A stretch of DNA of 64,000 nucleotides from Oscillospiraceae bacterium. Lineage in GTDB: Bacteria > Bacillota > Clostridia > UMGS1810. The stretch covers positions 71,650-135,649 of the forward strand of contig SVJH01000002.1 of NCBI GenBank assembly GCA_015069095.1. The letters run 5' to 3'. Positions 5,859-40,774 of this stretch are shown here, in pieces (position 1 is the first letter of the stretch; each line of letters opens with the position of its first letter). The notes under the pieces are model-generated. The model was not told the origin of the DNA, did no database searches, and worked only from the letters and a program-made list of their open reading frames with translations. The position numbers were made by a program, and so were the translations under genes.

Positions 5859-8585
5859 CTACTCCTCGCTTCCGCAGCATTTTTTATACTTTTTGCCGCT
5901 TCCGCATGGGCAAGGATCGTTTCTGCCAACTTTTGCACTTTTAACAACAGGTTTTTTCTGCACAGTGCCGTCAGATGCACCTGACGCACCTGTAACTTTT
6001 GCAACCTGTTTTCTTTCTACGTTAGATTTTGGCTCAACATTTAAAATATATTTAATAACTTCTTCTCTTATGTTGCCAAGCATTTCGTCATACATAGCCG
6101 AGCCTTCTTCACGGTATGCAATAACAGGGTCTGTATTTCCGTATGCTCTAAGTCCTATACCCTGACGAAGTTGGTCCATATTGTCAATGTGATCCATCCA
6201 TTTATTATCAACAACCTGAAGAAGAATAACTCTTTCAATTTCTCTAATTCTTTCTGTTCCGAAAATTTCTTCTTTTTCTTTGTAAATTCTTGTTGCTTCA
6301 TCGTAGATTTTGTTATAAATATCTTCTTTTGTGAGGCTTTCCCAAGTTTCGCGAGGGAAATCAATTCTGTTTTCTTTATCAAATATTGACTGACAATACT
6401 CTTTAAGCCCATCTAAATTCCAGTCGTCAACAACGTCTGATGAACCAACGTAACTTCTTACAATTTCATCTGCGAACTGCTCAAGCATACTTGAGTAAGA
6501 ATTTTGAAGTTCCTCTCCGTCAAGTACTTTCTGACGCTCGTTATAGATAACTTTTCTTTGTTCGTTCATTACATCGTCATACTGAAGAACGTGTTTTCTT
6601 GTCTGGAAGTTTCTGCCTTCAACACGTTTTTGCGCGCTTTCAATCGCATTTGATAAAAGTTTGTTTTCAATTGCTTCGTCGTCTGCAAGACCAAGTCTGT
6701 CAACCATAGTTTCCATACTTGCGCTACCAAAAAGTCGCATAAGTTCGTCCTGTAACGATAGGAAAAATCTTGATTCACCCACGTCGCCCTGACGTCCTGA
6801 ACGTCCGCGAAGCTGATTATCAATACGTCTTGATTCATGGCGTTCTGTACCAAGTATGAAAAGACCGCCTGCACTTACAACTTCTTCTCTTTCTTTATTT
6901 GTAATTTCTTTGTATTTTTCGTTAAGTTCTCTAAATGTTTTTCTTGCTTCTAAAATACTTTCATCGTCAGTTTCAAAAAACGCAGTCGATGCATCAATAA
7001 GTTCTTCTTCAATGCCCATTTTGCGCATTTCTTTTTTCGCCATAAACTCAGCATTACCGCCAAGGATAATATCAGTACCACGTCCCGCCATATTTGTTGC
7101 GATTGTAACAGCGCCTTTTTTACCTGCCTGAGCGATAATTTCTGCTTCTTTTTCGTGGAATTTAGCGTTAAGTACTTCGTGAGGAATACCTTTTTTCTTA
7201 AGCAGTGCGCTTAAAAATTCACTCTTTTCGATTGTGATTGTACCAACAAGTACCGGCTGACCTTTTTTGTAGCATTCTTCAATCTGTTTTATAACAGACA
7301 TATATTTGCCCATTTCGGTTTTGTAAACAACGTCAGGATGGTCAAGTCTTACCATAGGCATATTTGTAGGAATAACAACAACGTCAAGCGAGTAAATAGA
7401 CTGAAATTCAACTTCTTCTGTCTGTGCTGTACCCGTCATACCTGAAAGTTTTTTGTAAAGACGGAAAAAGTTCTGGAAAGTAATAGTTGCAAGTGTTTTG
7501 CTCTCATGTGCAACTTTTACGTTTTCTTTTGCCTCAATAGCCTGATGAAGTCCGTCATTGTAGCGTCTTCCGTACATAAGACGTCCTGTAAATTCGTCAA
7601 CAATTATAACTTCGCCATCTTTTAAAACGTAATCTTTATCACGCTTCATAATTCCGTTTGCTTTAAGTGCCTGATTGATATGATGCGAAATTGTCATATT
7701 GTCAGGGTCGGATAAGTTTTCAAGATTAAACGCCGCTTCTGCTTTTTTGATACCTCTTGCTGTAAGAGTTGCAGTATGCGCTTTTTCGTCAACAATGTAG
7801 TCGGCATCCATATCGTCTGATAAAACTTTGTCATCTTGTTCTTTTATAACGATAGATTTTAAACCTTTTGCAAAACGGTCGGCAATTTCGTATAGCTGAG
7901 TAGATTCAGAGCCGATTCCCGAAATAATAAGCGGTGTTCTTGCTTCGTCAATAAGAATTGAGTCAACTTCATCGACAATAGCGTAGTTATGGCCGCGTTG
8001 AACCTGATTTTTCTTATAGATAACCATATTATCTCTAAGATAGTCAAATCCAAACTCGTTATTTGTACCGTATGTTATATCGGCATCATATGCCGCTTTT
8101 CTATCTTCTGTATCGTGAGTTATAAGTCCAACTGTAAGACCTAAAAACTTATAGATTTTACCCATTTGTTCGCTATCACGTTTTGCAAGGTAATCGTTGA
8201 CAGTAACAACGTGAACACCTTCGCCCGTTAAAGCGTTTAAGTAACAAGGAAGTGTAGCAACAAGAGTTTTACCTTCACCTGTTTTCATTTCGGCAATTCT
8301 GCCCTGATGAAGAACAATACCGCCTATAAGCTGAACATCAAAATGACGCATACCAAGTGTTCTTTTTGATGCTTCTCTTACTGTGGCAAATGCTTCAGGC
8401 AAAATATCGTCAAGCGTTTGCCCGTTTTTTAGTCTTAATTTAAATTCATCTGTTTTCTGTTTAAGCTCTGTGTCCGAAAGTTTTTCAAAATCGCTCTCTA
8501 AAGCGTTTATTTTTTCAACAATAGGCTTAATTCTTTTTATTTCACGGTCGCTGTACGACCCGAATATTTTTTCAAAAAATCCCAT
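5859..8585 (-). CDS. secA: Preprotein translocase ATPase SecA
   Basis: Motor that drives unfolded preproteins through SecYEG. Full-length at 908 residues. Domains and motifs: nucleotide-binding domain 1 with Walker A MKTGEGKT (100-107), DEAD-type box [16 protein letters not shown], the preprotein cross-linking domain, NBD2 with [10 protein letters not shown] and the [21 protein letters not shown] arginine-finger region, and the C-terminal zinc/SecB-binding tail [16 protein letters not shown]. The ATG follows GAGGGTGA. A well-formed promoter (TTGATA, 17 bp, TATAAT) lies immediately upstream at 8638-8666. prfB and the secreted prolyl isomerase follow in the same direction. Confidence 0.98.
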
Positions 8586-8637
8586 TCATTTCACCCTCAA
8601 AAAAATTATTACCCATTTTATAAATATAGATAATATA

Positions 8638-8666
8638 ATTATACCAAAAAATTATGCAAATATCAA
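8638..8666 (-). promoter_or_regulatory. Sigma-A promoter of secA
   Basis: Read on the minus strand: TTGATA (8661-8666), 17-bp spacer, TATAAT (8638-8643). The start codon lies about 50 bases downstream. Confidence 0.8.
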
Positions 8667-8698
8667 TACACTCATTAAAAAAGTTTATATAAAAATTG

Positions 8699-8740
8699 TT
8701 GAAATATGTCATATTTATATGGTATAATGAAAGTACTTTC
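8699..8740 (+). promoter_or_regulatory. Promoter with overlapping palindrome for the 8763 gene
   Basis: TTGAAA (8699-8704), 18-bp spacer, TATAAT (8723-8728). The perfect 12-base palindrome GAAAGTACTTTC (8729-8740) covers the expected transcription start and could be an operator. Confidence 0.7.
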
Positions 8741-8762
8741 ATATACATAAGGGGGAATTTTT

Positions 8763-9359
8763 GTGAAAGAAAAAATTCAGGCAAAAATAAATGGCGCAAA
8801 AATGTGGAAAAGTATTACTTTAATATGCGTACTTATTTTAGTTGTATCGTTTTTTGTTGGAATTATAATAAAAAATGATATTACAAAATTTATTCTTGGT
8901 GCGTCTGGCATTGCTACAATTGTTAGTCTTATTGTATTTTTCGGATTTAGAAACAACATACTAAAATGTATGAAAATCCTTGAAGAAGCGGGGATTACAC
9001 TTGATGAAGTGGCAAAAGACCTTGAAGGTGCAAAAACTATCGGCAAAGTAAGAAAAGTTGTTTGCGGAGATAAGTTTTTTACACTTCCAAGTCCGTTTTG
9101 TGTATTTTCTTATAAAGAAATCCTTTGGGTTTATTTAAAAAAGACTACAACACATGATGGCAGTACAGGTGCTACAACAACAAGTAAAACAGTTATTTTC
9201 TGCACAGCACACGGCAAAAAGTTTTCTGCAAATATTTCGTGGAAAGTTGCAAAAGAATTTTTAGAAGAAAATAGAGAAAAATTTCTTCCTGAACTTATTG
9301 TCGGATATAAAATGAAATACAACAAACAATACAAAGAATTAGTAAAAAAATATAAATAA
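8763..9359 (+). CDS. Two-TM membrane protein, unknown function
   Basis: A 198-residue protein with two adjacent hydrophobic helices (about residues 17-37 and 42-62) and a cytoplasmic C-terminal domain. That domain has a beta-rich segment (KVVCGDKFFTLPSPFCVFSYKEILWVY) and a second strand pair (SKTVIFCTAHGKKFSANISW). The pattern of a small TM anchor followed by a PH-like barrel recalls uncharacterised clostridial DUF6709-type proteins, but I cannot confirm the family. The start is GTG behind AAGGGGG. The gene has its own strong promoter and is transcribed divergently from secA. A terminator follows at 9396. Confidence 0.75.
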   Translation: MKEKIQAKINGAKMWKSITLICVLILVVSFFVGIIIKNDITKFILGASGIATIVSLIVFFGFRNNILKCMKILEEAGITLDEVAKDLEGAKTIGKVRKVVCGDKFFTLPSPFCVFSYKEILWVYLKKTTTHDGSTGATTTSKTVIFCTAHGKKFSANISWKVAKEFLEENREKFLPELIVGYKMKYNKQYKELVKKYK

Positions 9360-9395
9360 AAAACACACTTATGTAGGTGCGTGTTAGTGATAAAA

Positions 9396-9428
9396 AACCG
9401 AGTGAAACTAAAATCACTCGGTTATTTT
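9396..9428. terminator. Terminator of the CCGAGTGA type
   Basis: Stem AACCGAGTGA/TCACTCGGTT followed by ATTTTTATT. The same stem sequence is reused at 11619, 46713, 50626, 51592, 52141 and 52224. Confidence 0.8.
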
Positions 9429-9440
9429 TATTGCTTTAAT

Positions 9441-9500
9441 ATTGTAGGGGCGACTCTCTGCGGTCGCCCGTTTATGCCTCCTTGCCTAAAGGGAGCCTTT
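9441..9500. repeat. GTAGGGG-type repeat joined to a CCTTGCCTAAAGG-type repeat
   Basis: GGGCGACTCTCTGCGGTCGCCC forms a hairpin (about 9448-9469) after ATTGTAGG. It is followed by CTCCTTGCCTAAAGGGAG (9479-9496). Related copies of the first type lie at 51686 and 52182. Copies of the second lie at 26843, 27288, 35422, 36908, 36990 and 56018. Confidence 0.7.
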
Positions 9501-9535
9501 TTCAAAAACCCTAACTTATATTAGCGCCTTTTTTG

Positions 9536-10666
9536 TCAGTCAAAATATACAAATACTTTTTCTTCTGATGATTTTTTTGCACCAAGGCACATTTTAGCAC
9601 TTAAAATTCCTGCAGATAATGGTGCTTTTGACTTTTCCTTTCCTTCCATAACGCCTATAAAGTTTTCGCACAAAACAGCATCGCCGCCATAGTGAGAGCC
9701 GTTTGTCGATAAAACATGTGTTTCTTTTATATTTCTAAGATGCTGATATACATTAACCTCATTTGTTGTCCAGTCGAAATCAATTGTGCCTTTATAACCG
9801 ATAATTCTTGCTCCGCGGTTTCCTGCTTTATTTCTTACAACAAAATCCTGTGTATAAACAACGTGCATACCGTTTTCATATTCCACTAACATACTTCCCG
9901 AATCTTCGTTACCTGTATCTTTTGCAAAGCAGCAGTACTCGCCAATAACAAATCCGTCGCCGTTTTTCGCCACGTTTTTTGGGCTTTCTGTACATGTTTC
10001 ATACTCTGGGCAGTCTTTACATTTTAATCCTTCTTCTTTTTCTCCCAAAAATACCTGTTTCGATTTCATAGCAGTAATACATACAGGTTTTAAGCCGTTT
10101 AGTAAATAGTTTATGTAATCAATATCGTGAGTGGCTTTTTGAAGGAATAAACCGCCCGTTTCATTTTCATCGCGGTACCATTTGTGATAGTAACCCCTGG
10201 CGTAATTTACGTTATTATATGCCTCTATATGGGTGATTTCGCCTATTTTTCCTAAGTCAATAATTTCTTTTACATATTCTAAAATGGCAGATACTCTAAG
10301 CGGAAACGAAACAACACATTTATCCTCTAAGTTATCTATTTTTTCAAGCAAATATAAATCTTCATAATTTGTACAAACCGGCTTTTCCAAAAATAGGGGA
10401 ATATCATATTTTGAAACCAACTTAGTATACATTGCATGTGTTGAACATCTTGTGCCAATAAGCACTCCGTCAAGTTTTTCTGCCTTAAGCATTTTTTTTG
10501 CATCATCATAGTAGTTTATATTTTTATCTTCACTTAAATATTTTTCTTTAACGCCGTCATTATCAATATCCATAACAGCTGCAAGAGAAACTTTTTGTGT
10601 GCCTAAAAGTTTTTTAACTATTCCGTCTATTCTGTTTCCGTATCCAATAACGCCTATTTTAAGCAT
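9536..10666 (-). CDS. Gfo/Idh/MocA-family oxidoreductase
   Basis: A 376-residue NAD(P)-dependent sugar or inositol dehydrogenase-type enzyme. The N-terminal Rossmann domain starts with GVIGYGNRI (residues 5-13), the conserved EKP is at 94-96, and the C-terminal substrate domain holds the HDIDYINYLL segment with the family's catalytic His/Asp region. A CxxC-containing insertion (CKDCPEYETC) is typical of one bacterial subgroup. The substrate cannot be told from sequence. The gene is divergent from an AraC-type regulator 147 bases away, which probably controls it in response to a sugar. It ends near a terminator and intergenic repeats at 9396-9500. Confidence 0.88.
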   Translation of the reverse strand: MLKIGVIGYGNRIDGIVKKLLGTQKVSLAAVMDIDNDGVKEKYLSEDKNINYYDDAKKMLKAEKLDGVLIGTRCSTHAMYTKLVSKYDIPLFLEKPVCTNYEDLYLLEKIDNLEDKCVVSFPLRVSAILEYVKEIIDLGKIGEITHIEAYNNVNYARGYYHKWYRDENETGGLFLQKATHDIDYINYLLNGLKPVCITAMKSKQVFLGEKEEGLKCKDCPEYETCTESPKNVAKNGDGFVIGEYCCFAKDTGNEDSGSMLVEYENGMHVVYTQDFVVRNKAGNRGARIIGYKGTIDFDWTTNEVNVYQHLRNIKETHVLSTNGSHYGGDAVLCENFIGVMEGKEKSKAPLSAGILSAKMCLGAKKSSEEKVFVYFD

Positions 10667-10775
10667 AATATCACCTCAAATAAATTATAAGTAAAGTTTA
10701 TCAAAAAAATCAAGACTTGTCATTACAAAAAAATGCTATGTTTTTGTACTTTTCTGCTATTTAAATGTTTTTAAG

Positions 10776-10804
10776 TTGACATTTTAATTTACGGATGTTA
10801 AATT
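10776..10804 (+). promoter_or_regulatory. Candidate promoter of the AraC-type regulator
   Basis: TTGACA at 10776-10781, 17-bp spacer, TAAATT at 10799-10804. The inferred start would fall at or just before the ribosome-binding site at 10811, giving an unusually short leader. Confidence 0.45.
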
Positions 10805-10813
10805 AAAAAAGAG

Positions 10814-11614
10814 GTGATTTTTATTAAAATTTCAGATTTAATATACGTGTCAGAATGTAATATTCAAAATATAGATGGAGTAGATACAGGAAGTTTAAGA
10901 CCTGACGGTCGAAGTGATTATCATATTTTATATATTGTAAAAGGTTCTTGTTTTGTAAATCTTCACGGTAAGGAGTACGAAGTAAAAGAGGATTCAATTA
11001 TATTGTACTTGCCCTATGAATATCAGGAATACACATATAAAAAAGAAATAAAAACAAAGTCATATTTTGTACATTTTCAAGGAAGTATTTGCGAAAGTCT
11101 TTTTAAAGATTATGATGAAAGAATAATGTATATCGGAAAAAACGCAAAAACAGAAAGGCTTTTTGAAAGTCTTGTTGAAGAACATCAACTAAAAATGATG
11201 GGATATGAAGAAATATGTTCATCACTGCTTCTTACAATAATTTCATATATAACAAGAGAGAAAAACTGTATCTCTAAAAATTTAAATACATCATCAAACG
11301 AAAAAATTGCTGAGGCGTGCGCCGAAATAAGAAGGAATTATTATAAGGTTTTTTTGATTTCGGATTATGCAAAAATGTACAATATGAGCATAAGCAGATT
11401 TTCGCATCTTTTTAAACATATGACTGGTACAAGTCCGAATAAATATGTAAATGAAATTCGCATAGAAAAAGCAAAAGAAATGCTTATAAATACAAATTAT
11501 CCGATTTGTGAAATAGCACAGCGTGTAGGAATGCAAAGCCAAAGTTATTTTAGTAAAAATTTTAAAAAACACACTATGTATTCGCCGATTGAATACAGAG
11601 AAATGTTTAAATAA
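10814..11614 (+). CDS. AraC-family transcriptional regulator, start codon uncertain
   Basis: About 266 residues. An N-terminal cupin-like sensor (residues 20-100, with HILYIVKGSCFVNLHGKEYEV) is followed by a C-terminal double helix-turn-helix (ISDYAKMYNMSISRFSHLFKHMTG and PICEIAQRVGMQSQSYFSKNFKKH). Such proteins activate sugar-use genes, and the divergent Gfo/Idh/MocA gene is the obvious target. The start is odd. The longest frame opens at a GTG that is itself part of AGAGGTG, the apparent ribosome-binding site. The codon at normal distance is ATT (10823), a rare initiator. The next in-frame GTG (10847) has no ribosome-binding site. The product identity is firm; the first 3-11 residues are not. 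Confidence 0.9.
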   Translation: MIFIKISDLIYVSECNIQNIDGVDTGSLRPDGRSDYHILYIVKGSCFVNLHGKEYEVKEDSIILYLPYEYQEYTYKKEIKTKSYFVHFQGSICESLFKDYDERIMYIGKNAKTERLFESLVEEHQLKMMGYEEICSSLLLTIISYITREKNCISKNLNTSSNEKIAEACAEIRRNYYKVFLISDYAKMYNMSISRFSHLFKHMTGTSPNKYVNEIRIEKAKEMLINTNYPICEIAQRVGMQSQSYFSKNFKKHTMYSPIEYREMFK

Positions 11615-11618
11615 AAAT

Positions 11619-11646
11619 AACCGAGTAGATTTTAATCCACTCGGTT
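11619..11646. terminator. Terminator of the CCGAGT type
   Basis: Stem AACCGAGTAGAT/ATCCACTCGGTT with one mismatch, loop TTTA, followed by TTAATTTTT. Confidence 0.85.
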
Positions 11647-11660
11647 TTAATTTTTACTTT

Positions 11661-11741
11661 GCAAAACGAATGTTATGCATAAATAAGTTTTTCGCCTTAC
11701 CTTTCTTTCAAAAAGGCAAGCATGTTAAGGGCAGCGCCCTT
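11661..11741. repeat. Multi-hairpin intergenic repeat downstream of serS
   Basis: GCAAAACGAATGTTATGC (11661-11678), a CCTTTCTTTCAAAAAGG hairpin (11700-11716) and AAGGGCAGCGCCCTT (11727-11741). The order and linking sequence (AAGTTTTTCGCCTT) match the right half of the 5699-5856 repeat. Confidence 0.8.
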
Positions 11742-11758
11742 TACACAATTAAAAACTA

Positions 11759-13030
11759 TTATTTTTCAATTTTATCTGTGCCCATGTATGGAACCAAAAC
11801 TTCAGGAATAGTAACGCTTCCGTCTTCATTCTGGAAGTTTTCAAGGATAGCCGCAACAGTTCTTCCGATTGCAACACCGCTACCATTTAATGTATGAACA
11901 TACTGCGCTTTATCCTTAGGCGAATTTTTAAATTTAATGTCCGCTCTTCTTGCCTGGAAATCTTCAAAGTTAGAGCAAGAAGAAATTTCAACGTATCTGC
12001 CATAACTTGGCATCCAAACTTCAATATCATACTTCATAGCAGCAGTAAATCCTAAATCGCCAACGCAGATTTTAACAACTCTGTATGGAATTTTAAGCAT
12101 CTGAAGTACTTTTTCTGCATCATTTGTAAGTTTTTCAAGTTCAGCATAACTATCTTCAGGTTTTGTAAATTTAACAAGTTCTACTTTGTTAAACTGATGC
12201 TGACGAATAAGACCTCTTGTGTCTTTACCGGCACTACCTGCTTCTGCTCTGAAACATGCTGAGTATGCAACGTGTTTTATTGGAAGTTTGTCGCCTTCTA
12301 AAATCTGTTCTCTGTACATATTAGTAACAGGAACTTCAGCAGTAGGAATTAAGAAGTAATCTGTACCTACAACTTTAAATGCATCTTCTTCAAATTTTGG
12401 AAGCTGACCTGTTCCAACCATAGAACGTCTGTGCACCATATATGGTGGGAATACTTCTTCATAACCACTAATTGTAGTATGAGTATCTAAAAAGAAGTTG
12501 ATTATAGAACGTTCTAATCGAGAGCCTAAACCTTTGTAGAAAGTAAAACGTGTACCTGTAACTTTACCTGCAGTTGGGGCATCTAAAATGCCAAGGTCTG
12601 CACCAACATCCCAGTGTGCTTTAGGTTCAAAATCAAATTTTGTAGGTTCTAAGAATTTTCTGACTTCCACGTTATCTTCGTCTGTATCACCATCCGGAAC
12701 AGTAGGATTTGGAAGGTTAGGAATTCTAAGCATCATTTCGTATACTTTTTCGTCGTATTCTTTAACAACGGAATCGATTTCAGAAATTTTTGCAGAAAGT
12801 TCTTTCATTTGGGCAAAAATAGGAGTAACATCTTTTCCTTCTTTTTTAAGAGCAGGAATTTGTTTACTTGTTTCATTTTGTTTGCTCTTTAACTGTTCAA
12901 CTTCATATAATAATTCACGTCTTTTGTTATCAAGTTCCAAAAGAGCGTCAATGTCAACAACTTCTTTTCTTCTTGCAAGTGCTGCTTTTACTTTTTCTGT
13001 TTCTGTTCTTATAAGTTTAATATCAAGCAT
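11759..13030 (-). CDS. serS: Seryl-tRNA synthetase
   Basis: Class II synthetase charging tRNA-Ser. It is 423 residues, the standard length. An N-terminal antiparallel coiled-coil arm (residues about 27-105, tRNA-binding) precedes the catalytic domain, which has motif 2 ([22 protein letters not shown]) and motif 3 ([16 protein letters not shown]). The ATG follows AAGGAG. The 56 bases upstream hold no T-box leader, unlike many Firmicute serS genes. The gene lies after parA-parB and the coiled-coil membrane gene in the same direction, so it may be the tail of the dnaA-to-parB transcript or start inside it. Confidence 0.97.
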
Positions 13031-31010: not shown

Positions 31011-32336
31011 TTACTTGCCCCCCTGTTTCTTTTTAAGTGCGTTTATTTTTTGTTTTCCTATTTTTATTGCCTGAGTGCAACTTCTTTCACTTGGGCAAAC
31101 GTAAGAACAAATACCACATTCAATACAGTCTAAAATATTATATTTAAGACATTTTGAAAAATCCTCGTTTAGTGCAGATTCTGCAAGAGTAAGCGGTACA
31201 AGGTTCATAGGACACGAATTTACACACTTGCCACATCTTAAACATGGACTTTTTTCTTTTTTGTAAATTTCGCTTTCGTCAAATGCCAAAATTGCAGAAG
31301 TTGTTTTTATAACAGGAGTATCAGTATCCTGCTGCGCAATACCCATCATAGGTCCGCCCATAACGATTTTTTTAACGTTTCCTATAAATCCGCCTGCATT
31401 TTCTATAACATCAGTGAAGGATGTACCAAGTTTAACTCTGAAGTTGCAAGGCGAGTCAATAGCACCGCCCGAAACTGTAACAACTCTTGAAAGAACAGGC
31501 TGACGGAAAATGGCAGCGTTGTAAACTGCGCATGCAGAGTCGACATTTTGAACAACAACGCCTACGTCTGCAGGAAGTTTTCCTGATGGAACTTCTCTTT
31601 TTGTAACCGCATAAATAAGGTGTTTTTCACTACCTTGCGGATATTTTGTTTTAAGTGTAACAACATCGATATTATCGTATTTAGATGATGCTTCTTTCAT
31701 TTTTTTGATTGCTTCCATCTTGTTGTTTTCGATTGCTATGTAGCCTTTATCACATTCAACGATGTTCATAATAAATCGTAAACCTTCAACAACCATAAAA
31801 GCAGTTTCCATCATAACGCGGTAATCACTTGTAAGATAAGGCTCACATTCAGCAGCGTTAATAATAACACAGTCAATCTTACCGCTTGGATTAAGTTTAA
31901 TATGAGTAGGGAAGCCTGCACCGCCAAGACCAACAAGGCCTGCTTCTCTTATGATAGCAAGTTTTTCTTCTTTAGATAGATTTTCAAATCCATCTCGACG
32001 GTAAATATCAGGCGAAAGTGTGTATAAATCATCATTTTCAATGATAACAGAGTTTACCATTTGTCCGTTTGGATGACGGCGTTTTTCAATTTTTGTAACC
32101 GTACCCGATACAGTAGAGTGAATTGGCGCACTGACAAAAGCAGAAGAATCTGCGATTTTTTGTCCAACGCAAACGGTATCTCCAACGTTTACAATAGGCT
32201 CACATGGAGCGCCGATGTGCTGAGACATAGGATACACCATTTCTTTAGATGCGCTCATTTCAACAATTGGTTTGTCTTTGGTATAAATCTTTTTATCATC
32301 AGGATGAATACCACCCTTAAATGTAAGGACACCCAT
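31011..32336 (-). CDS. rnfC: Rnf complex NADH-interacting subunit RnfC
   Basis: Peripheral subunit where NAD+ is reduced, 441 residues. The Nqo1-like FMN/NADH domain shows GLGGAGFPTHIKL and NAAECEPYLTSDYR. An SLBB-like region and two 4Fe-4S clusters follow (CLRCGKCVNSCP and CIECGICSYVCP). AAGGAGG precedes the ATG. It is the first gene of rnfCDGEAB, with a promoter about 50 bases upstream. The complex couples ferredoxin oxidation to a Na+ or H+ gradient, the main energy-conserving device of many anaerobic clostridia. Confidence 0.97.
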   Translation of the reverse strand: MGVLTFKGGIHPDDKKIYTKDKPIVEMSASKEMVYPMSQHIGAPCEPIVNVGDTVCVGQKIADSSAFVSAPIHSTVSGTVTKIEKRRHPNGQMVNSVIIENDDLYTLSPDIYRRDGFENLSKEEKLAIIREAGLVGLGGAGFPTHIKLNPSGKIDCVIINAAECEPYLTSDYRVMMETAFMVVEGLRFIMNIVECDKGYIAIENNKMEAIKKMKEASSKYDNIDVVTLKTKYPQGSEKHLIYAVTKREVPSGKLPADVGVVVQNVDSACAVYNAAIFRQPVLSRVVTVSGGAIDSPCNFRVKLGTSFTDVIENAGGFIGNVKKIVMGGPMMGIAQQDTDTPVIKTTSAILAFDESEIYKKEKSPCLRCGKCVNSCPMNLVPLTLAESALNEDFSKCLKYNILDCIECGICSYVCPSERSCTQAIKIGKQKINALKKKQGGK

Positions 32337-32662: not shown

Positions 32663-32824
32663 TTACTTGCCAACTTTGTCGCCCCAACTTGCATTTGCAT
32701 CTGAAACAGAGAAAGTTTTTGTTGCAAGTGCTGTTAAAGGATTGTTAACTGTTGTACCTGAAGTTGTGATAATATCTTCAGAAATGAATTTTTTAATTTC
32801 TGCATTTGGTTTTATATATCTCAT
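32663..32824 (-). CDS. 53-residue peptide of an MRYIKPNAEI-type family (cassette 1)
   Basis: A short gene beginning MRYIKPNAEIKKFISED, continuing IITTSGTT, and ending ASWGDKVGK. It has no hydrophobic segment. A strong AAGGAGG lies 8 bases before the ATG, and the gene starts 13 bases after the stop codon of the 806-residue secreted protein, so it is translated with it. A paralogue (35521-35679) lies in the same place after the second secreted protein, with about 80% identical residues, which strongly supports that both are real. Function is unknown. Similar short frames with a K-P-x-x-E...ED-(I/V)-I-T-T-S pattern recur, to my recollection, in gut Clostridia without a named role. Confidence 0.85.
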   Translation of the reverse strand: MRYIKPNAEIKKFISEDIITTSGTTVNNPLTALATKTFSVSDANASWGDKVGK

Positions 32825-32837
32825 TGTTCAATCCTCC

Positions 32838-35258
32838 TTATCTGTACGTTTTGTTGCCTTCAAAGTCGATTGTGTAAACTTTGAAATCAAAATCGCCAAG
32901 TTTAACTTTGTCTGCCGGTACATCACCGATAGCACCTGTTAAAATATAACTTCCTGTTTTTGCAACGTAATCGTTTGTTCCAACTGTAACAGCAGAGTAA
33001 ACTGTGTCAAGTACGATATCCCAAACGTATTTAACGTCGTCTAAAGTAATTTCTGCTTCAAAACCTGCTACTGCAATATTTTCAATACTGTCAAGTGCAG
33101 CAAAGAAACGGTTTGTAATAGTACCTAAACCTTTTCCGTCATCGTATATAGAAGCAGTTGCTTCTTCGATTTCTGTAGCTGGTTTTACTTTTTCATATGT
33201 AAATGTAGCACCGCTTGTAACATTTGAACCAAAAATATCTGTAACTTCACTTAGGTCGATTGCGTTTTCGCCGTAGTCAAGTGCATCTTCGCTGATTGAA
33301 ATGTTAAGTCCGCCCATTGGGATAGTGATATCATCCATAGAAATGTAGTTACCATTAACTTTAATTTTACTTGTTGTGCCTTCTTTAATAAGGTCTGCTC
33401 TCATAACTTCGTTAGAGAATGTAACATCAAGTCCGTTGTTTGTAGCAGAAAGTGCAGGAAGGTTACTTGAAAATACAGAGTATGCCATAGTATCGTCAAC
33501 TTTTGTTTCGCCTGTACCAACTATTACCTGGTTACTACTATTTTTTTCTTCTCCGCCCTGATGTTCGCTCTGTAAGTTAACAGCAGAAATTAAACCTTGT
33601 TTAGCATATGTCATAAAAGTACTATGAAGAAGTCCTTCGTGTTTTTCTCCGTTAAAATAAACAGTAACAGGGGCTCTGTCTTTTGAATAGTCAACATCAA
33701 TAACTGCAACAGCATCAACCCAGCCGTCGTAGTAGTCTGTAATGTTTAAACGAGTAGAACCGTGGTTTGAAACACCTGAAGATGAGTTTCCAGCGTATCC
33801 GTAAAGCTGTCCGTTTTGCTGACCAATAAACATTGGCGCACCTACAGATGTAATTGTATATGAATTAGCAGGGATACCTGAAATACGAAGTCTTGAAAGC
33901 ACTCCGCCCGGATACATTTTAATTTTGTAAACAAGTTTCTGGTTTTCTGCTGCACTATTTACACCAACAAATTTTTCAAATACTCTGTATGCACCTGTGT
34001 TGTATTCAACACTGCCTTTTGGGAAAATACCCATTGTGTTATCTTCGTTATGCCAGATTCCTGCTCCTGTGTTAGTATACCAGTTTGTTAAAAGTGTAGT
34101 TAAACCTTGGTTTCTTGAAATTTCTGAAGATGCATCAAATGAAGCATTTGGCATATGAATTGTTTTAACATCATCTATGTTGTTAATAACAATATCTCTT
34201 TTTTGAATATCTTTAATTTGCTGACCGAAAATATCTTTAACATTTCTTAAACTGATTGTTGTAGAACCAGGTTTGTTAAAGTATTTTTCGTTAATTGTAA
34301 ATGCAAGACCGCCTTTTTCAAATGTGATGTCAGATAGTGGAATAGCCACGCTATCTACTAAAATTGTAGAAAGTGTATTATCTGATGAATTTGTTAAATC
34401 TCCCATCATAACTTCGTTTGAAAATTCAAAACGGTTATTTGTTCTTGTATATGTAAGTGCAGGAAGATTTGCTTTATTAACTGTGTAAACACCTGTGTTG
34501 TCCATTTCGCAAAATGTGTTATAGTCATCGCTTGTTGTGTCGCCACCAGTCTGAATTATAAGACCTTTTAGTTCTCCTGCTGTTGCAATGTCATATAAAT
34601 GAGTATGTACAGTGTTTGTTTTTTTCATACCGTTGTAGTAAACAGTAATAGGGTAATTGTTGTTTTTTACAGTAGCAGTCATTGGTATAACGGCGGTAAC
34701 GTCTATCCAGCCATCGCCGTAGTAGTCCGGAACATCAAATAGATCAGTACCGACACCACGATCGCCGGGTTTTGCTATTGATGCTTTAAGAGTTCCGTTT
34801 GTTTTTCCTGTTTCAAAAATTGTAACAGTTTCGCCGTTTGATTTTGCACCAAGTCTGTATCTTTGTCTTATTGTTGTCGCATCTCCAGGTTTTACCTGAA
34901 TTTTTGTAACCAAGTACAATTCGTTGTCTGCAGTAACTTGAGGAACTGTTCCGCCAGCAAAACCTGTCTGAATAGACTGGTAGTTGTATTTTACGGTGTT
35001 TTTGTAGAAAAGTTTTGCAGTTTGAGCATCGGCGTTATATGTAATGTTGTTTGCTCCGCCGTGCCAGTACGCATTTGCGTATGATGCCCCGCCTGCACTG
35101 CTTAAATCGCTTGCTGATGAAAATGTTACCATTGGCTGATACCATGTTTTAACTGCTTCATTGGTTGTTTCTGTTGTAGTATCTTCAGCAAATGTTGTGA
35201 AAGCAAAAGAAGAAATTACAAGTGTCAAAACTAAAAGTGATGCTAATAATTTTCTCAT
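32838..35258 (-). CDS. Large secreted protein with duplicated beta-rich modules (cassette 1)
   Basis: An 806-residue exported protein. A signal peptide (RKLLASLLVLTLVISSFAFTTFAED) is followed by two homologous halves of about 320 residues. Matching landmarks are DYYGDGWIDVTAVI/DYYDGWVDAVAVID, YPITVYYNG/APVTVYFNG, FEFSNEVMMGDL/VTFSNEVMRADL, DITFEKGGLAFTI/DITIPMGGLNISI and DIFGQQ/DIFGSN. The C-terminal 100 residues (from SIYDDGKGLGTITNRFF to the end) match the C-terminus of the 347-residue protein at 35704. No catalytic residues, LPXTG or S-layer motifs are seen. The halves look like lectin-like or concanavalin-type beta sandwiches followed by Ig-like segments, which is a guess. The gene is headed by two copies of a 36-bp palindromic element. 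Confidence 0.88.
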   Translation of the reverse strand: MRKLLASLLVLTLVISSFAFTTFAEDTTTETTNEAVKTWYQPMVTFSSASDLSSAGGASYANAYWHGGANNITYNADAQTAKLFYKNTVKYNYQSIQTGFAGGTVPQVTADNELYLVTKIQVKPGDATTIRQRYRLGAKSNGETVTIFETGKTNGTLKASIAKPGDRGVGTDLFDVPDYYGDGWIDVTAVIPMTATVKNNNYPITVYYNGMKKTNTVHTHLYDIATAGELKGLIIQTGGDTTSDDYNTFCEMDNTGVYTVNKANLPALTYTRTNNRFEFSNEVMMGDLTNSSDNTLSTILVDSVAIPLSDITFEKGGLAFTINEKYFNKPGSTTISLRNVKDIFGQQIKDIQKRDIVINNIDDVKTIHMPNASFDASSEISRNQGLTTLLTNWYTNTGAGIWHNEDNTMGIFPKGSVEYNTGAYRVFEKFVGVNSAAENQKLVYKIKMYPGGVLSRLRISGIPANSYTITSVGAPMFIGQQNGQLYGYAGNSSSGVSNHGSTRLNITDYYDGWVDAVAVIDVDYSKDRAPVTVYFNGEKHEGLLHSTFMTYAKQGLISAVNLQSEHQGGEEKNSSNQVIVGTGETKVDDTMAYSVFSSNLPALSATNNGLDVTFSNEVMRADLIKEGTTSKIKVNGNYISMDDITIPMGGLNISISEDALDYGENAIDLSEVTDIFGSNVTSGATFTYEKVKPATEIEEATASIYDDGKGLGTITNRFFAALDSIENIAVAGFEAEITLDDVKYVWDIVLDTVYSAVTVGTNDYVAKTGSYILTGAIGDVPADKVKLGDFDFKVYTIDFEGNKTYR

Positions 35259-35284
35259 TTTAAATCATCCTTTCTTTTGAGTGT

Positions 35285-35356
35285 TTTTGTTGTATTAACA
35301 TACAACAAAAGGAGTACTCCTTTTGTTGTATTAACATACAACAAAAGGAGTACTCC
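35285..35356. repeat. Two tandem copies of a 36-bp palindromic element upstream of the 806-residue gene
   Basis: Exact 36-bp units at 35285-35320 and 35321-35356. Each contains TTTTGTTGTAT/ATACAACAAAA, and the units are joined by AAAAGGAGTACTCCTTTT, a perfect 18-bp palindrome. An identical third copy precedes the 347-residue gene. They lie 27 bases before the start codon, between the terminator of the preceding cassette and the ribosome-binding site, so they probably carry promoter/operator or leader functions. Confidence 0.92.
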
Positions 35357-35370
35357 TTTTTATTTTTTAA

Positions 35371-35403
35371 AAGGCACCTTAAGTTTTTTACCTAAGATGT
35401 CTT
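35371..35403. terminator. Terminator after peptide cassette 2
   Basis: AAGGCACCTTAAG/CTAAGATGTCTT stem with two mismatches and A/T flanks. It is related in sequence to 27400 and 36829. Confidence 0.75.
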
Positions 35404-35421
35404 AAAAAGTGTGAATTGTAA

Positions 35422-35513
35422 TGCCCGCCTTGTGTAAAGGGAGCTGTTTTTATTGTAAGTTTTTTGTGTTACTTTTTTTCAAAAAAGTAACGATTTTATA
35501 TCTTTTTAAAAAG
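35422..35513. repeat. CCTTGTGTAAAGG-type repeat followed by a multi-hairpin repeat
   Basis: GCCCGCCTTGTGTAAAGGGAGC (about 35423-35444), then TTGTAAGTTTTTTGT and hairpin GTTACTTTTTT/AAAAAAGTAAC (35468-35491), then CGATTTTATATCTTTTTAAAAAG. Confidence 0.75.
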
Positions 35514-35520
35514 AAAATAT

Positions 35521-35679
35521 TTACTTACCTACTTTGTCGTTCCAGCTTACGTTTGCATCTGAAACAGTAAATGCTTTTGATGTAAGTGCTGTTAAAGGAT
35601 TGTTAGTAGTACCTGAAGTTGTGATAACATCTTCAGAAATGAATTTTTTAATTTCTGCGTTTGGTTTTATATATCTCAT
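35521..35679 (-). CDS. 52-residue peptide of an MRYIKPNAEI-type family (cassette 2)
   Basis: The paralogue of the peptide at 32663: it starts MRYIKPNAEIKKFISED, then VITTSGTT, and ends VSWNDKVGK. AAAAGGAG precedes the ATG. It begins 24 bases after the 347-residue secreted protein. Conservation is strongest at both ends, with the middle (NNPLTALTSKAF) drifting by conservative changes and one deletion. The retained frame and paired position argue that the peptide is functional. No modifying enzyme, transporter or protease gene that would mark a known peptide natural-product cluster lies nearby. Confidence 0.85.
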   Translation of the reverse strand: MRYIKPNAEIKKFISEDVITTSGTTNNPLTALTSKAFTVSDANVSWNDKVGK

Positions 35680-35703
35680 TTCTTAATATCTCCTTTTACT
35701 ATT

Positions 35704-36747
35704 TTATGCTAAAGGAATTTTAACACCTTCATAGGTTATAACATATGGTGTAACAACAAAATTGCTACCAAAATCACTTGGAACATCGCCGATAGCACCT
35801 GTTAGAATGTAACCTGCACTTGCAACATATTTTGAACCGTTAACAGTAACTGTATTGTAAACACTGTCAAGTGCGATATCCCATGCGTATGTTTCGCCGT
35901 CAACAACCGCTTCAACTTCAAAGCCCGCTTTTGCAAAATCCAAAGACTCAAGTGTTGTAAAGAATCTGTTTGTAACAGTAGATGTGTCTTTTCCGTCATC
36001 GTAAGAAACTTCGCTTAATTCATTGTTAACTTCGATTTTTTCAACAACAGAGTATGTACCGTCTTCGTTTTCTACACATTCATAGCCGTTTGCAATGTAT
36101 TTTTCATCTACCGCAACAGAAAATGTTCCGCCTTTTATTGCAGAGCCGTCTGCAGTAGAAAGACCTATTACATCATCAAATACAGTTTCTTCTGTTGTAG
36201 TTGTAATAAAAGTACCACCGTTTATAGTAAGTGGTGCATTTTTAACAGTAAATAATTTTGTTCCGCTGTTTTTCTGGTAAGTACCGCCGTTAATTACAAC
36301 GCTACATCCTTCAACGTCGCAATATGCAACGTTACCGCTGTTAGTAGTAATTTCTAAGTTTTCGCCAAGTACAAGTTTTCCACCTGCTGTATTTACATTA
36401 AATACATTACCCGTGCCTGTAATTTCAATTTTACCGTTGTAAATTTTGAAATCACTTTTTACATAGAATAATGGGTTTTTTGCACTTGTGCATTTAAGCG
36501 TATATCCGCCAAGGTCAATTTCAATGTTTTTGCCTGAGCCGGGGCTGTACGAACCGCTACCTGTTGAATAATCTGCTTTAAGTTCAATTTTCCAAAGTGA
36601 ACCATCATTTGGTGAATTGGTAAGTGCTGTTGACAAATTGTTTCCGTATGACTGCCCGTTAACATAAATGTCTGCAGCATAAGAAATAGTAGCAAATGCA
36701 CAAATTAAAACCAATACTAAAACGAAAGATGCTAAAAACTTTTTCAT
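35704..36747 (-). CDS. Secreted beta-helix-like protein sharing the cassette C-terminal module (cassette 2)
   Basis: A 347-residue exported protein. A signal peptide (KKFLASFVLVLVLICAFATISYAAD) precedes a right-handed beta-helix-like region of short repeating strands. Examples are IEIDLGGYTLKCTS, FKIYNGKIEITGTG, GGKLVLGENLEITTN, CSVVINGGTYQKN, APLTINGGTF and GGTFSVAV, a pattern common in surface adhesins. The C-terminal 100 residues (from SYDDGKDTSTVTNRFF through GYILTGAIGDVP to the end) are homologous to those of the 806-residue neighbour. The leader carries one copy of the 36-bp element. No anchoring motif is seen, so the shared C-terminal module may be the attachment or recognition part. 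Confidence 0.88.
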   Translation of the reverse strand: MKKFLASFVLVLVLICAFATISYAADIYVNGQSYGNNLSTALTNSPNDGSLWKIELKADYSTGSGSYSPGSGKNIEIDLGGYTLKCTSAKNPLFYVKSDFKIYNGKIEITGTGNVFNVNTAGGKLVLGENLEITTNSGNVAYCDVEGCSVVINGGTYQKNSGTKLFTVKNAPLTINGGTFITTTTEETVFDDVIGLSTADGSAIKGGTFSVAVDEKYIANGYECVENEDGTYSVVEKIEVNNELSEVSYDDGKDTSTVTNRFFTTLESLDFAKAGFEVEAVVDGETYAWDIALDSVYNTVTVNGSKYVASAGYILTGAIGDVPSDFGSNFVVTPYVITYEGVKIPLA

Positions 36748-36773
36748 TTTAAATCATCCTTTCTTTTGAGTGC

Positions 36774-36809
36774 TTTTGTTGTATTAACATACAACAAAAG
36801 GAGTACTCC
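36774..36809. repeat. Third copy of the 36-bp palindromic element, upstream of the 347-residue gene
   Basis: Identical over 36 bp to 35285-35320. The flanking leader (CATTTTAAATCATCC and TTTCTTTTGAGTG on the plus strand) is also identical, so about 60 bp of control DNA is duplicated between the cassettes. Confidence 0.92.
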
Positions 36810-36828
36810 TTTTAAAATTTTTAATTAA

Positions 36829-36860
36829 AAGGCATCTTAAGTTTTTACCTAAGATGCCTT
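36829..36860. terminator. Terminator following rpoC
   Basis: AAGGCATCTTAAG/CCTAAGATGCCTT stem with A/T flanks. It lies just upstream of the 36-bp element, so it insulates cassette 2 from rpoBC. Confidence 0.8.
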
Positions 36861-37069: not shown

Positions 37070-40000
37070 TTACATATCAAGGTAATCGCTTTGAACGATA
37101 GGAGTAACAACTTCGATATCGTTGTAAGTTTTCATACCTGTACCTGCAGGAATAAGTTTACCGATAATAACGTTTTCTTTAAGACCGATAAGTGGGTCTT
37201 TTTTACCTTTGATAGCAGCTTCTGTAAGAACTCTTGTTGTTTCCTGGAAGGAAGCAGCAGAAAGGAACGAATCTGTAGCAAGGGCAGTTTTTGTGATACC
37301 AAGAAGTACTTGTTTTGCAACCGGTGGATTTTTACCGGCCTTAAGTGCCTCTTTAGTTTTTTCTTTAAGTTCGCTCTTGTCAATCATAGAGCCAACGATT
37401 AAATCTGTATCTCCGGCATCTTCAACTCTTACTTTATGCATCATCTGACGTACAATAACTTCGATGTGCTTGTCGTTGATATCGATACCTTGTAGTCTGT
37501 AAACTCTTTGTACTTCCTGAATTAAGTACTGCTGAACGGCATCTGCACCTTTAGATTCAATTTTTAATAAATCGTGCGGATTGATAGAACCTTCTGTAAG
37601 TTCAGCACCTGCAACAAGTTTTTCTCCATCTGCGATTTTAATTCTTGAACCGTAAGGGATAAGATAAGTAACAGCATGACCTGTTTCTTCGTTAGTAACA
37701 GTGATTTCACGTTTGTTTTTGTTTTCACTGATTTTTGCAATACCGTCTTGTTCAGAAAGAATTGCAAGACCTTTTGGTTTTCTTGCTTCGAATAGTTCTT
37801 CAACCCTTGGAAGACCTTGTGTGATGTCATCACCGGCAATACCACCAGAGTGGAATGTTCTCATTGTAAGCTGTGTACCAGGTTCACCGATAGACTGAGC
37901 AGCAATAATACCAACTGCTTCACCAACGTCAACGCTTCTGCCTGATGAAAGGTTAGAACCGTAACATTTAGAACATACGCCGATTTTTGATTCACAAGTA
38001 AGGATAGTTCTGATTTTAACTTCTTCAATACCTGCTTTAACAATGTTTTCAGCGTCTTTTTCTGTCATAAGTTGGTTTTTCATAACAAGTACGTTGCCGT
38101 TTTCATCTATGATATCCTGAGCACTTGTTCTTCCAACAAGTCTGTCCTGAAGACTTTCAATAATTTCATTTCCGTCTTTGATATCTCTTACAACAAGGTA
38201 CTCTTCTGTACCGCAGTCGTGTTCTCTAACGATAACATCCTGTGATACGTCAACAAGTCTTCTTGTAAGGTAACCAGAGTCGGCTGTACGAAGAGCTGTA
38301 TCTGTAAGACCTTTTCTGGCACCGTGAGTAGAAATGAAGTATTCCTGAACGTTAAGACCTTCACGGAAGTTCGCTTTAATAGGTACTTCGATTGTTCTAC
38401 CCTGTGTATCCGCCATAAGACCACGCATACCAGCAAGCTGTCTTATCTGGTCGATACTACCACGGGCACCGGAAGTTGCCATCATGTAGATTGGGTTGTA
38501 TTTGTCAAGGTTTTCAACAAGTGCGTCTGTAACTTTATCAACAGTTTCGCTCCATGTCTGAACAACCATGTTATGTCTTTCTTCGTCTGAAATAAGACCA
38601 CGTTTGAATTCTTTTGTAATAGCGCTGATTTCTTTTTCAGCATTTTCAAGGTATTCTTTTTTAGCCTTTGGAATTTCCATATCGGAAACGCTGATTGTGA
38701 TTGCGCCTTTTGTTGAATATTTAAATCCAAGAGATTTAATGCTGTCAAGAACTGCAGCAGTATCAGTAATACCATGTGTTCTTATACATTTGTCAACAAT
38801 TTTTCCAAGACCTTTTTTACCTGCAACAAAAGAAATTTCAAGTTCAAAGTTAGATTTATCGGTAGGGTCAAGAGGATTTCTCTTAACAAAACCTAAATCC
38901 TGCGGAATGTTCTGGTTGAAAATAAGTCTGCCGACTGTAGCGTCAACAAGTTTTTCGTAAGTTTCTCCGTTAATTTCTTTTTTGATTATAACTTTAATTG
39001 GTGCGTGAAGCTGTACTGCGCCTTCGCCATAAGCCATAAGTGCTTCATCAACGCTGATGAATGTTTTACCTTCACCAATTTCACCGCCAAAGCATCCTTC
39101 TTCTGTAAATGTTGCTTTTCTTTTGCCTTCAGCTTCTAAGCGTGCATTGATTTTAGAAAGTGCTTCGCCTTCTTCACCGTCTGTGATGTATGTTACAACC
39201 TGACCTTCTTTATAGCCGGAATCGCCACCATCTAAAATTTTAACTTCTTTAGGTTTAACCATTGTTAAGTAGTAACTACCAAGAACCATATCCTGTGTAG
39301 GAACTGTAACCGGTTTACCATCCTGAGGTTTTAAAAGGTTATTTGCTGATAGCATTAAGAATCTTGCTTCTGCCTGTGCTTCAGGAGATAGAGGAACGTG
39401 AACAGCCATCTGGTCTCCGTCGAAGTCGGCGTTGAACGCACTACATACAAGCGGATGTAGTTTAAGCGCTCTACCTTCAACTAAGATTGGTTCAAATGCC
39501 TGAATACCAAGTCTGTGAAGTGTAGGGGCACGGTTAAGTAGAACAGGATGTTCTTTGATAACATCTTCAAGCATATCCCAAACTTCAGGACGTACTCTTT
39601 CTACCATTCTTTTTGCACTTTTAATGTTGTGGCAAAGACCGTCAGAAACGAGTTTTTTCATAACGAATGGTTTGAAAAGTTCAAGTGCCATTTCTTTTGG
39701 AAGACCACACTGATAAATTTTAAGTTCAGGACCAACAACGATAACTGAACGTCCAGAGTAGTCAACACGTTTACCAAGAAGGTTCTGTCTAAAGCGTCCC
39801 TGTTTACCTTTAAGTAAATCAGAAAGTGATTTAAGCGGTCTGTTTCCAGGACCTGTAACAGGTCTGCCACGTCTGCCGTTGTCGATAAGAGCATCAACGG
39901 CTTCCTGAAGCATTCTTTTTTCGTTTCTTACGATAATATCAGGTGCTTCAAGTTCAAGTAATCTTTTTAAACGGTTATTTCTGTTGATAACACGTCTGTA

Positions 40001-40774
40001 TAAGTCATTTAAGTCGCTTGTTGCAAATCTTCCGCCGTCAAGTTGTACCATAGGACGAAGATCAGGCGGGATAACAGGAACAACGTCCATAATCATCCAT
40101 TCAGGTTTGTTTCCTGAAATTCTGAAAGATTCAACAACTTCAAGTCTTTTTGCAATTCTAACTTTTTTCTGACCCTGTGCTTCTTCAAGTTCTGCTTTAA
40201 GTTCAACTGATAATTTTTCAAGGTCAATCTGCATTAAAAGTTCTTTAATTGATTCGGCACCCATACCTGCTTTAAATGCATCTTTACCGTATTTTTCAAC
40301 AGTATCTCTGTATTCTTTTTCGCTGAGTACCTGTTTTGCTTCAAGGCTTGTTTTCTGACCTGGGTCAATAACAACGTAAGAAGCAAAATATAATATTTTT
40401 TCAAGAGAGCGAGGGCTCATATCGAGCAAGAGCCCCATTCTTGAAGGAATTCCTTTAAAATACCAAATGTGAGATACAGGAGCTGCAAGGTCAATATGAC
40501 CCATTCTTTCACGTCTGACTTTTGAGCGTGTTACTTCAACACCGCAACGGTCGCAGACAATACCCTTGTATCTGATTCTTTTATATTTACCGCAATAACA
40601 TTCCCAGTCTTTTTGAGGTCCGAAAATTCTTTCACAAAATAGACCGTCTCTTTCCGGTTTTAATGTTCTGTAATTTATGGTTTCAGGCTTTTTAACTTCG
40701 CCTCTTGACCATTCCCTGATTTTTTCAGGAGATGCCAAACCAATTTGTATAGCGTCAAATTCTTGGTTTTCCAA
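37070..40774 (-). CDS. rpoC: RNA polymerase beta' subunit
   Basis: Largest subunit of RNA polymerase, 1234 residues, normal for Firmicutes. The N-terminal zinc ribbon has Cys59, Cys61, Cys74 and Cys77. The active-site Mg motif NADFDGDQ lies at 448-455. The second zinc site, bridge helix and trigger loop are recognisable in [32 protein letters not shown] and TMRTFHSGG. It lies 17 bases after rpoB. Downstream, where rpsL-rpsG would be expected, there are only repeats, a terminator and the secreted-protein cassettes. Confidence 0.98.

Follow-up and report, generated by a model that had tools for sequence, protein, structure and literature searches.

Two secreted-protein and peptide units at the locus

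The stretch analysed here is a 64,000-nucleotide window of contig SVJH01000002.1 (C30 in our numbering) from the 2.06-Mb genome (G000) of an Oscillospiraceae bacterium (GCA_015069095.1). Its minus strand carries two units, flanked by an rpoC-like gene (37070-40774) on one side and an rnfC-like gene (31011-32336) on the other. Each unit encodes a secreted protein and a 52- or 53-residue peptide, and this peptide we place near the precursors of linear polyphosphorylated peptides (LPP), a kind of ribosomally synthesized and post-translationally modified peptide (RiPP). Both units follow the same plan (Table 1), with a terminator-like hairpin being succeeded by one or two 36-bp palindromic elements, the secreted-protein gene, and the peptide gene, and in both the signal peptides and ribosome-binding sites are readable in the sequence. 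A preliminary description of this locus had recognized two neighbouring minus-strand units of one plan, which the open reading frames (ORFs) bear out. It had also noted about 100 shared C-terminal residues in the secreted proteins, and indeed the last ~105 residues are 50% identical. The peptides, earlier put at about 80% identical, are certainly similar, with the computed value being 87%, and their ratio of nonsynonymous to synonymous substitution rates (dN/dS) is 0.22.

At the DNA level, units 1 and 2 share 75% identity over 222 nt (leader and signal peptide) and 71% over 537 nt (module, peptide, and 3' end), but their middles are unrelated. Because the agreement is thus limited to the ends, the outer domains would have been exchanged on a kept frame. 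Searches of Pfam and NCBIfam with both secreted proteins and both peptides gave no family over the cut-off.

Table 1. Features of the two units, with positions in the window. Ig, immunoglobulin; pLDDT, predicted local distance difference test; aa, amino acids.
Feature	Position	Strand	Basis or remark
Terminator-like hairpin before unit 1 (347-aa unit)	36827..36860	-	Sequence, folding
Palindromic leader element, single copy, before 347-aa gene	36774..36813	-	Folding, repeat comparison
Secreted protein, 347 aa	35704..36747	-	Signal peptide about 36676-36747; outer part beta-helix-like
Type-A C-terminal Ig-like module of 347-aa protein (aa 241-347)	35707..36027	-	A2 profile E 1.3e-48; nine-strand all-beta model, pLDDT mostly 87-94
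52-aa LPP-like RiPP precursor gene (putative)	35521..35679	-	ORF, peptide searches, dN/dS
Predicted leader of 52-aa precursor (aa 1-22, YIKPNAEIKKFISEDVITTS)	35614..35679	-	Conservation across 76 peptides
Predicted core of 52-aa precursor (aa 23-52), type A	35524..35613	-	Strand and helix modelled on module
Terminator-like hairpin before unit 2 (806-aa unit)	35371..35404	-	Sequence, folding
Palindromic leader element, two tandem copies, 36-bp period, before 806-aa gene	35285..35360	-	Folding, repeat comparison
Secreted protein, 806 aa	32838..35258	-	Signal peptide about 35187-35258; two beta-rich repeats
Type-A C-terminal module of 806-aa protein (aa 698-806)	32841..33167	-	A2 profile E 3.8e-45
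53-aa LPP-like RiPP precursor gene (putative)	32663..32824	-	ORF, peptide searches
Predicted leader of 53-aa precursor (aa 1-22)	32759..32824	-	Tyr3, Pro6, Phe13, invariant Ser22
Predicted core of 53-aa precursor (aa 23-53)	32666..32758	-	Sequence

Pairing of peptide and module in the source genome

Searches of the source genome with the peptides returned 17 places, these being 15 good matches, a divergent copy (C43), and a broken copy (C20). With 16 intact copies of the two-gene unit in this genome, the two units in the window, which had been taken for a duplicated cassette, are real as units but do not represent an isolated duplication. Module profiles located nine type-A modules (two cut by contig ends; C29, C32, and C8) and six type-B modules. 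Here, all 15 good peptides adjoin a module protein of the matching subtype (nine of type A and six of type B), with the A-type cores (NPLTAL..K.F.VSDAN.SW.DKVGK) found beside A modules and the B-type cores (TVQELIAKGYSIGTVKNLFKN) beside B modules. At C9 the peptide gene precedes its 2128-aa partner, and from this reversed order it follows that the pairing is independent of gene order.

Moreover, core and module similarities covary within the genome (Mantel rho 0.70, p < 2e-4). Mean core similarity is 0.61 within types and 0.13 between them, while leader identity stays high at 0.72 and 0.57, respectively. What had been called a constant peptide is constant only in its first ~22 residues, the core varying with subtype. 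Other peptide pairs tested gave dN/dS values mostly of 0.13-0.53, with one of 0.71, and by these ratios the 52-53-aa peptides are under purifying selection. Thus, both the adjacency of peptide and module and the selection on the peptide frames, on which the preliminary description had made its reading depend, are found.

The broken copy at C20 (17000-23000) is a peptide-gene remnant with an in-frame stop, next to which lies an ORF with an integrase-like start and a copper-amine-oxidase N-terminal-type end. The draft assembly is broken inside the type-A module at the ends of C8, C29, and C32, as is expected of a repeated sequence, and the repertoires of this module and peptide family are probably undercounted in draft genomes.

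Occurrence in other Clostridia and the secreted partners

A first profile scan of genome contigs with the peptide alignment confirmed no relative. In our survey of 391 genomes, for which the match and copy counts are lower bounds, the peptide profile matched at least 39 genomes and a broader leader profile at least 52, with several genera holding 5 to 20 or more copies per genome. Other families of Clostridia show the pairing too, and a single genome may have as many as 17-20 or more copies. The association of module and peptide under diversified outer domains, described earlier from the window, is thus recurrent, genome-wide, and extends beyond the source family. In four of these genomes (G223, G031, G118, and G065), 37 of 38 peptides come after a protein gene, and the gap from protein gene to peptide gene has a median of 22 nt over all units measured.

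By a simple rule, a signal peptide is present in 44 of 47 complete partners. None of the complete partners examined has an LPxTG C-terminal end, and no sortase was found in the source genome. CBM96 and Big_5 were recognized in the outer parts of two partners and nothing in most; directly upstream of two units are GH10 xylanases with CBM4_9. The C-terminal modules were modelled as Ig/fibronectin type III (FnIII)-like sandwiches, for which Foldseek searches with both models gave generic Ig/FnIII-like matches only (best E 9e-3 and 2.8e-3). Type-B modules and those of lineage f17 are homologous, but hhalign detected no relation of the type-A module to either.

The peptide leader and its likeness to LPP precursors

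LPPs (genes LppA, K, B, S, D, and N) were described by Popov et al. (2026; PMC13381572). In that system, the RiPP recognition element (RRE) LppB binds a YxxP leader, the kinase LppK phosphorylates Ser3 of the core, and the SipW-like LppS removes the leader, with the leader consensus being YxxPxVLxHQxIxFETxxS and the clusters holding 1-3 precursors; the biological role of LPPs is given as unknown (PMC13381572).

Across 76 peptides of the present family, the first ~22 residues follow the consensus Y-x-x-P-x-x-E-[IV]-x-x-F-x-x-E-D-[IV]-[IL]-T-x-S and the remainder varies. The Ser is conserved in 76/76, the Tyr in 73/76, and the Pro in 74/76, and the YxxP RRE-binding motif of LPP leaders is thereby present. 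No signal peptide was found on the 52-53-aa peptides. Judged by this conservation, the first ~22 residues form a predicted RiPP leader, and the peptides would belong near the LPP-like RiPP precursors, most of the gene-level features of LPPs being present. The preliminary description knew of no described system with this architecture, a view that finds no support, as leader motif and maturation cassette match those of LPP RiPPs (PMC13381572).

A predicted maturation cassette encoded in trans

Genomes with one copy have, directly after the pair, genes for an HprK-like kinase, a PqqD-type RRE, an S24/S26-like (putatively SipW-like) peptidase, an MsbA-like ATP-binding cassette (ABC) exporter, and a nucleoside triphosphate (NTP) transferase of the NTP_transf_5 family, and all five cassette genes occur together in loci L135, L136, L138, and L139. 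Among 80 HprK loci from named records, we counted the RRE in 54, the peptidase in 47, the exporter in 27, the NTP transferase in 21, and a YxxP peptide in 22, the last including Acetivibrio alkalicellulosi, Herbivorax sp. ANBcel31, and Clostridiales bacterium VE202-01. The cultured isolate A. alkalicellulosi DSM 17461 encodes the cassette in cis.

In the source genome, a full-length kinase (E 3.5e-89), an RRE, and a peptidase stand together on C33 (about 28.3-29.7 kb), C28 has an MsbA-like exporter alongside another RRE and a short-form kinase, and two NTP_transf_5 genes are on C21. By its gene content, then, this genome encodes the cassette in trans, split over C33, C28, and C21. In the 391 genomes, peptide and full-length kinase co-occur strongly, both being present in 36, the peptide alone in 3, the kinase alone in 23, and neither in 329 (Fisher p = 1e-31); with the broader profile, the corresponding counts are 45, 7, 14, and 325. 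Most genomes of the source's own family carry the short-form kinase only, without a good YxxP peptide match, and for this reason the short form probably serves another substrate.

The RRE matches PF05402 at 5.5e-16, and its profile matches LppB (9x8z) at 3.5e-6, though it is about equally close to the lasso RREs TfuB1, TbiB1, and PbaB1. Of the LppB residues in the Tyr/Pro pocket, the C33 RRE retains N33, Y60, D70, and F74, with its relatives varying at D70 and F74. The C33 peptidase has a GTSM Ser33 and a VLHR His72, the spacing of 39 being the same as for S29/H68 in LppS, but its Asp is uncertain, as the GD motif lies at +15 versus +25 for LppS D93. Its match to TIGR02228 (3.7e-7) is below the cut-off.

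Several arrangements around the kinase genes were also observed. On C28 (L216, 121000-139000), at 7660-11881, the short-form HprK, PqqD, and ABC exporter genes lie beside those for a 343-aa secreted protein and an SLH-like protein. Upstream of HprK in L245, L253, L271, and L307 are two different YxxP peptides in tandem, one having a short core that ends in W-Y (DDGWY, GAWY) and the other a longer core. Directly beside the kinase in L217, L218, L221, and L224, which represent several lineages, is a small secreted protein resembling the copper-amine-oxidase N-terminal domain.

Palindromic leader elements

Compared with shuffled sequence, the leaders with the palindromes form much more stable folds (z = -5.7 and -11.6), and an Rfam scan of the region gave no family over the gathering score. 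The palindrome is confined to the two units in the window, with one weak relative at the C42 unit. Being local in this way, it is not part of the general unit plan, and we rejected it as a general mark of the units, a defining role that the preliminary description had assigned to it. The hairpins sit just before the start regions of both secreted genes and constitute a candidate regulator site or RNA control element.

Proposed role of the peptides and alternative explanations

As the best explanation, to which we assign a probability of roughly 0.6, one shared cassette would mature many dispersed LPP-like precursors, and each core would act with the neighbouring secreted protein. Each unit would thus supply a Sec-secreted modular protein and an LPP-like RiPP precursor. 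The stand-alone PqqD-type RRE from C33 would bind the common leader (YxxP...F..EDIITxS), the HprK-like kinase beside it would phosphorylate the invariant Ser, the SipW-like peptidase would remove the leader close to this Ser, and the MsbA-like exporter, probably that on C28, would release the core (about 30 aa). RRE binding, phosphorylation, cleavage, and export are here transferred by analogy from the LPP work (PMC13381572). The released core would then work with the neighbouring secreted protein, most likely by binding its C-terminal Ig/FnIII-like module. The pairing itself suggests that such peptides act as partners of exported proteins.

For the docking of core on module, we rely on the within-genome covariation and on one structure model. 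AlphaFold2 modelling of the type-A module, continued by read-through into the peptide, predicts for the core a strand at aa 30-37 of the peptide and a helix at aa 46-50 (pLDDT 79-89), and the leader region falls below 55. The peptide having no further strand, the modelled core strand must pair with the module. From these two lines of evidence we infer the docking, noting that the fused read-through itself favours contact.

Several observations weigh against this explanation. The equivalent read-through model for lineage f17 gave a good module and no confidently docked core, making one positive of two, and the cores of B and f17 differ although their modules are homologous. The divergent C43 unit joins an A-like module to an unrelated core. 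Within the source genome, linked duplication alone could yield the subtype matching, and between genomes, core similarity goes weakly with module similarity, the leader doing at least as well; being small and no stronger than that of leader and module, this between-genome correlation was not used as proof of contact. Moreover, the full LPP leader consensus is absent, the second half instead reading E[IV]xxFxxED[IV][IL]TxS with the Ser kept.

Alternatively, the LPP-like RiPPs might act alone as a signal, bacteriocin, or surface compound, with the secreted protein merely co-expressed for a shared task such as polysaccharide use. The same cassette evidence would fit, as would the GH10 and CBM genes directly upstream of two units, the unknown role of LPPs, and the f17 model lacking a docked core. 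We nevertheless consider such independence somewhat unlikely, for in nearly every case the partner's C-terminal module belongs to one of a small number of types, matched to the core in every good pair of the source genome, and the pairing survives changed gene order and changed outer domains.

It is quite improbable, in our estimation, that the peptide is an unmodified cytosolic chaperone or secretion pilot whose N-terminal half binds an export factor and whose C-terminal half binds the module of its client. One constant and one client-specific half, together with the lack of a signal peptide on the peptide, are what such a pilot would show, but the partners carry Sec signal peptides of the ordinary kind, the peptide family is found together with the RRE/kinase/peptidase cassette, and the constant half consists of the YxxP RRE-binding motif and the invariant Ser. 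An effector/immunity or toxin/antitoxin pair, in which the peptide is a small protective protein, could be suspected from the small gene that immediately follows one for a large, partly variable secreted protein, but is highly improbable given that the recognized outer parts (CBM96 and Big_5) are not toxin domains, that the constant part is the partner's C-terminal module, and that the peptides go with a RiPP cassette.

Returning to the maturation of dispersed precursors by a shared cassette, a more specific version would be a sortase-free display, with the core serving as a two-headed adaptor. Its phosphorylated N-terminal Ser would be joined via the NTP transferase to an envelope glycopolymer, its other end would bind or complete the Ig-like module of one specific secreted protein, and one cassette would so anchor a whole set of exchangeable surface proteins. 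This anchoring role, inferred as it is, we regard as unlikely. The one-to-one link of precursor and large secreted protein in several families of Clostridia is a concrete lead to LPP function. If the docking is true, the chemistry of RiPPs would take on a structural or anchoring function at the cell surface, and an explanation would also be at hand for numerous unnamed tiny genes that neighbour those of secreted proteins in gut and cellulolytic Clostridia.

Comparison with known systems

In C-terminal sorting domains, such as those of the type IX secretion system (T9SS CTD) and LPXTG proteins, one kind of C-terminal domain is likewise carried by many unrelated secreted proteins; here, however, neither a sortase (in the source genome) nor LPxTG (in the complete partners) was found, and a small peptide gene lies beside each client. 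The SynChlorMet and HprK-related kinase A and B cassettes of NCBIfam also combine an HprK-like kinase with a PqqD-like protein and are the best NCBIfam matches, but all of these fall far below the curated cut-offs (25 versus 125-200 bits). In paeninodin-type lasso peptides, the tailoring enzymes (HprK and NTP transferase) and the RRE are related to those found here, and the leader has a [Y/W]xxP motif. The present system differs in having Tyr instead of Trp and a putatively LPP-like peptidase, and its core (GTTVNNPLT) has no acidic residue at positions 7-9 as a lasso peptide would. Neither a macrolactam cyclase nor a B2 protease was recognized by eye in the cassettes read, no genome-wide search having been made.

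The closest likeness is to LPPs, with which the YxxP leader, the conserved Ser near the leader end, the stand-alone PqqD-type RRE, the HprK-like kinase, the putative SipW-like peptidase, the MsbA-like exporter, and the NTP transferase are shared. The leaders differ, with F..EDIITxS here versus HQxIxFETxxS in LPPs, and here up to 17-20 or more precursors are dispersed away from one cassette, each beside a secreted modular protein. LPP-type RiPP precursors are already known, and the report on LPPs (PMC13381572) mentions neither Clostridia nor secreted partner proteins. What we did not find described in open-access papers, and consider new, is that the precursors are systematically paired one to one with secreted modular proteins, and that a large set of them is served in trans.

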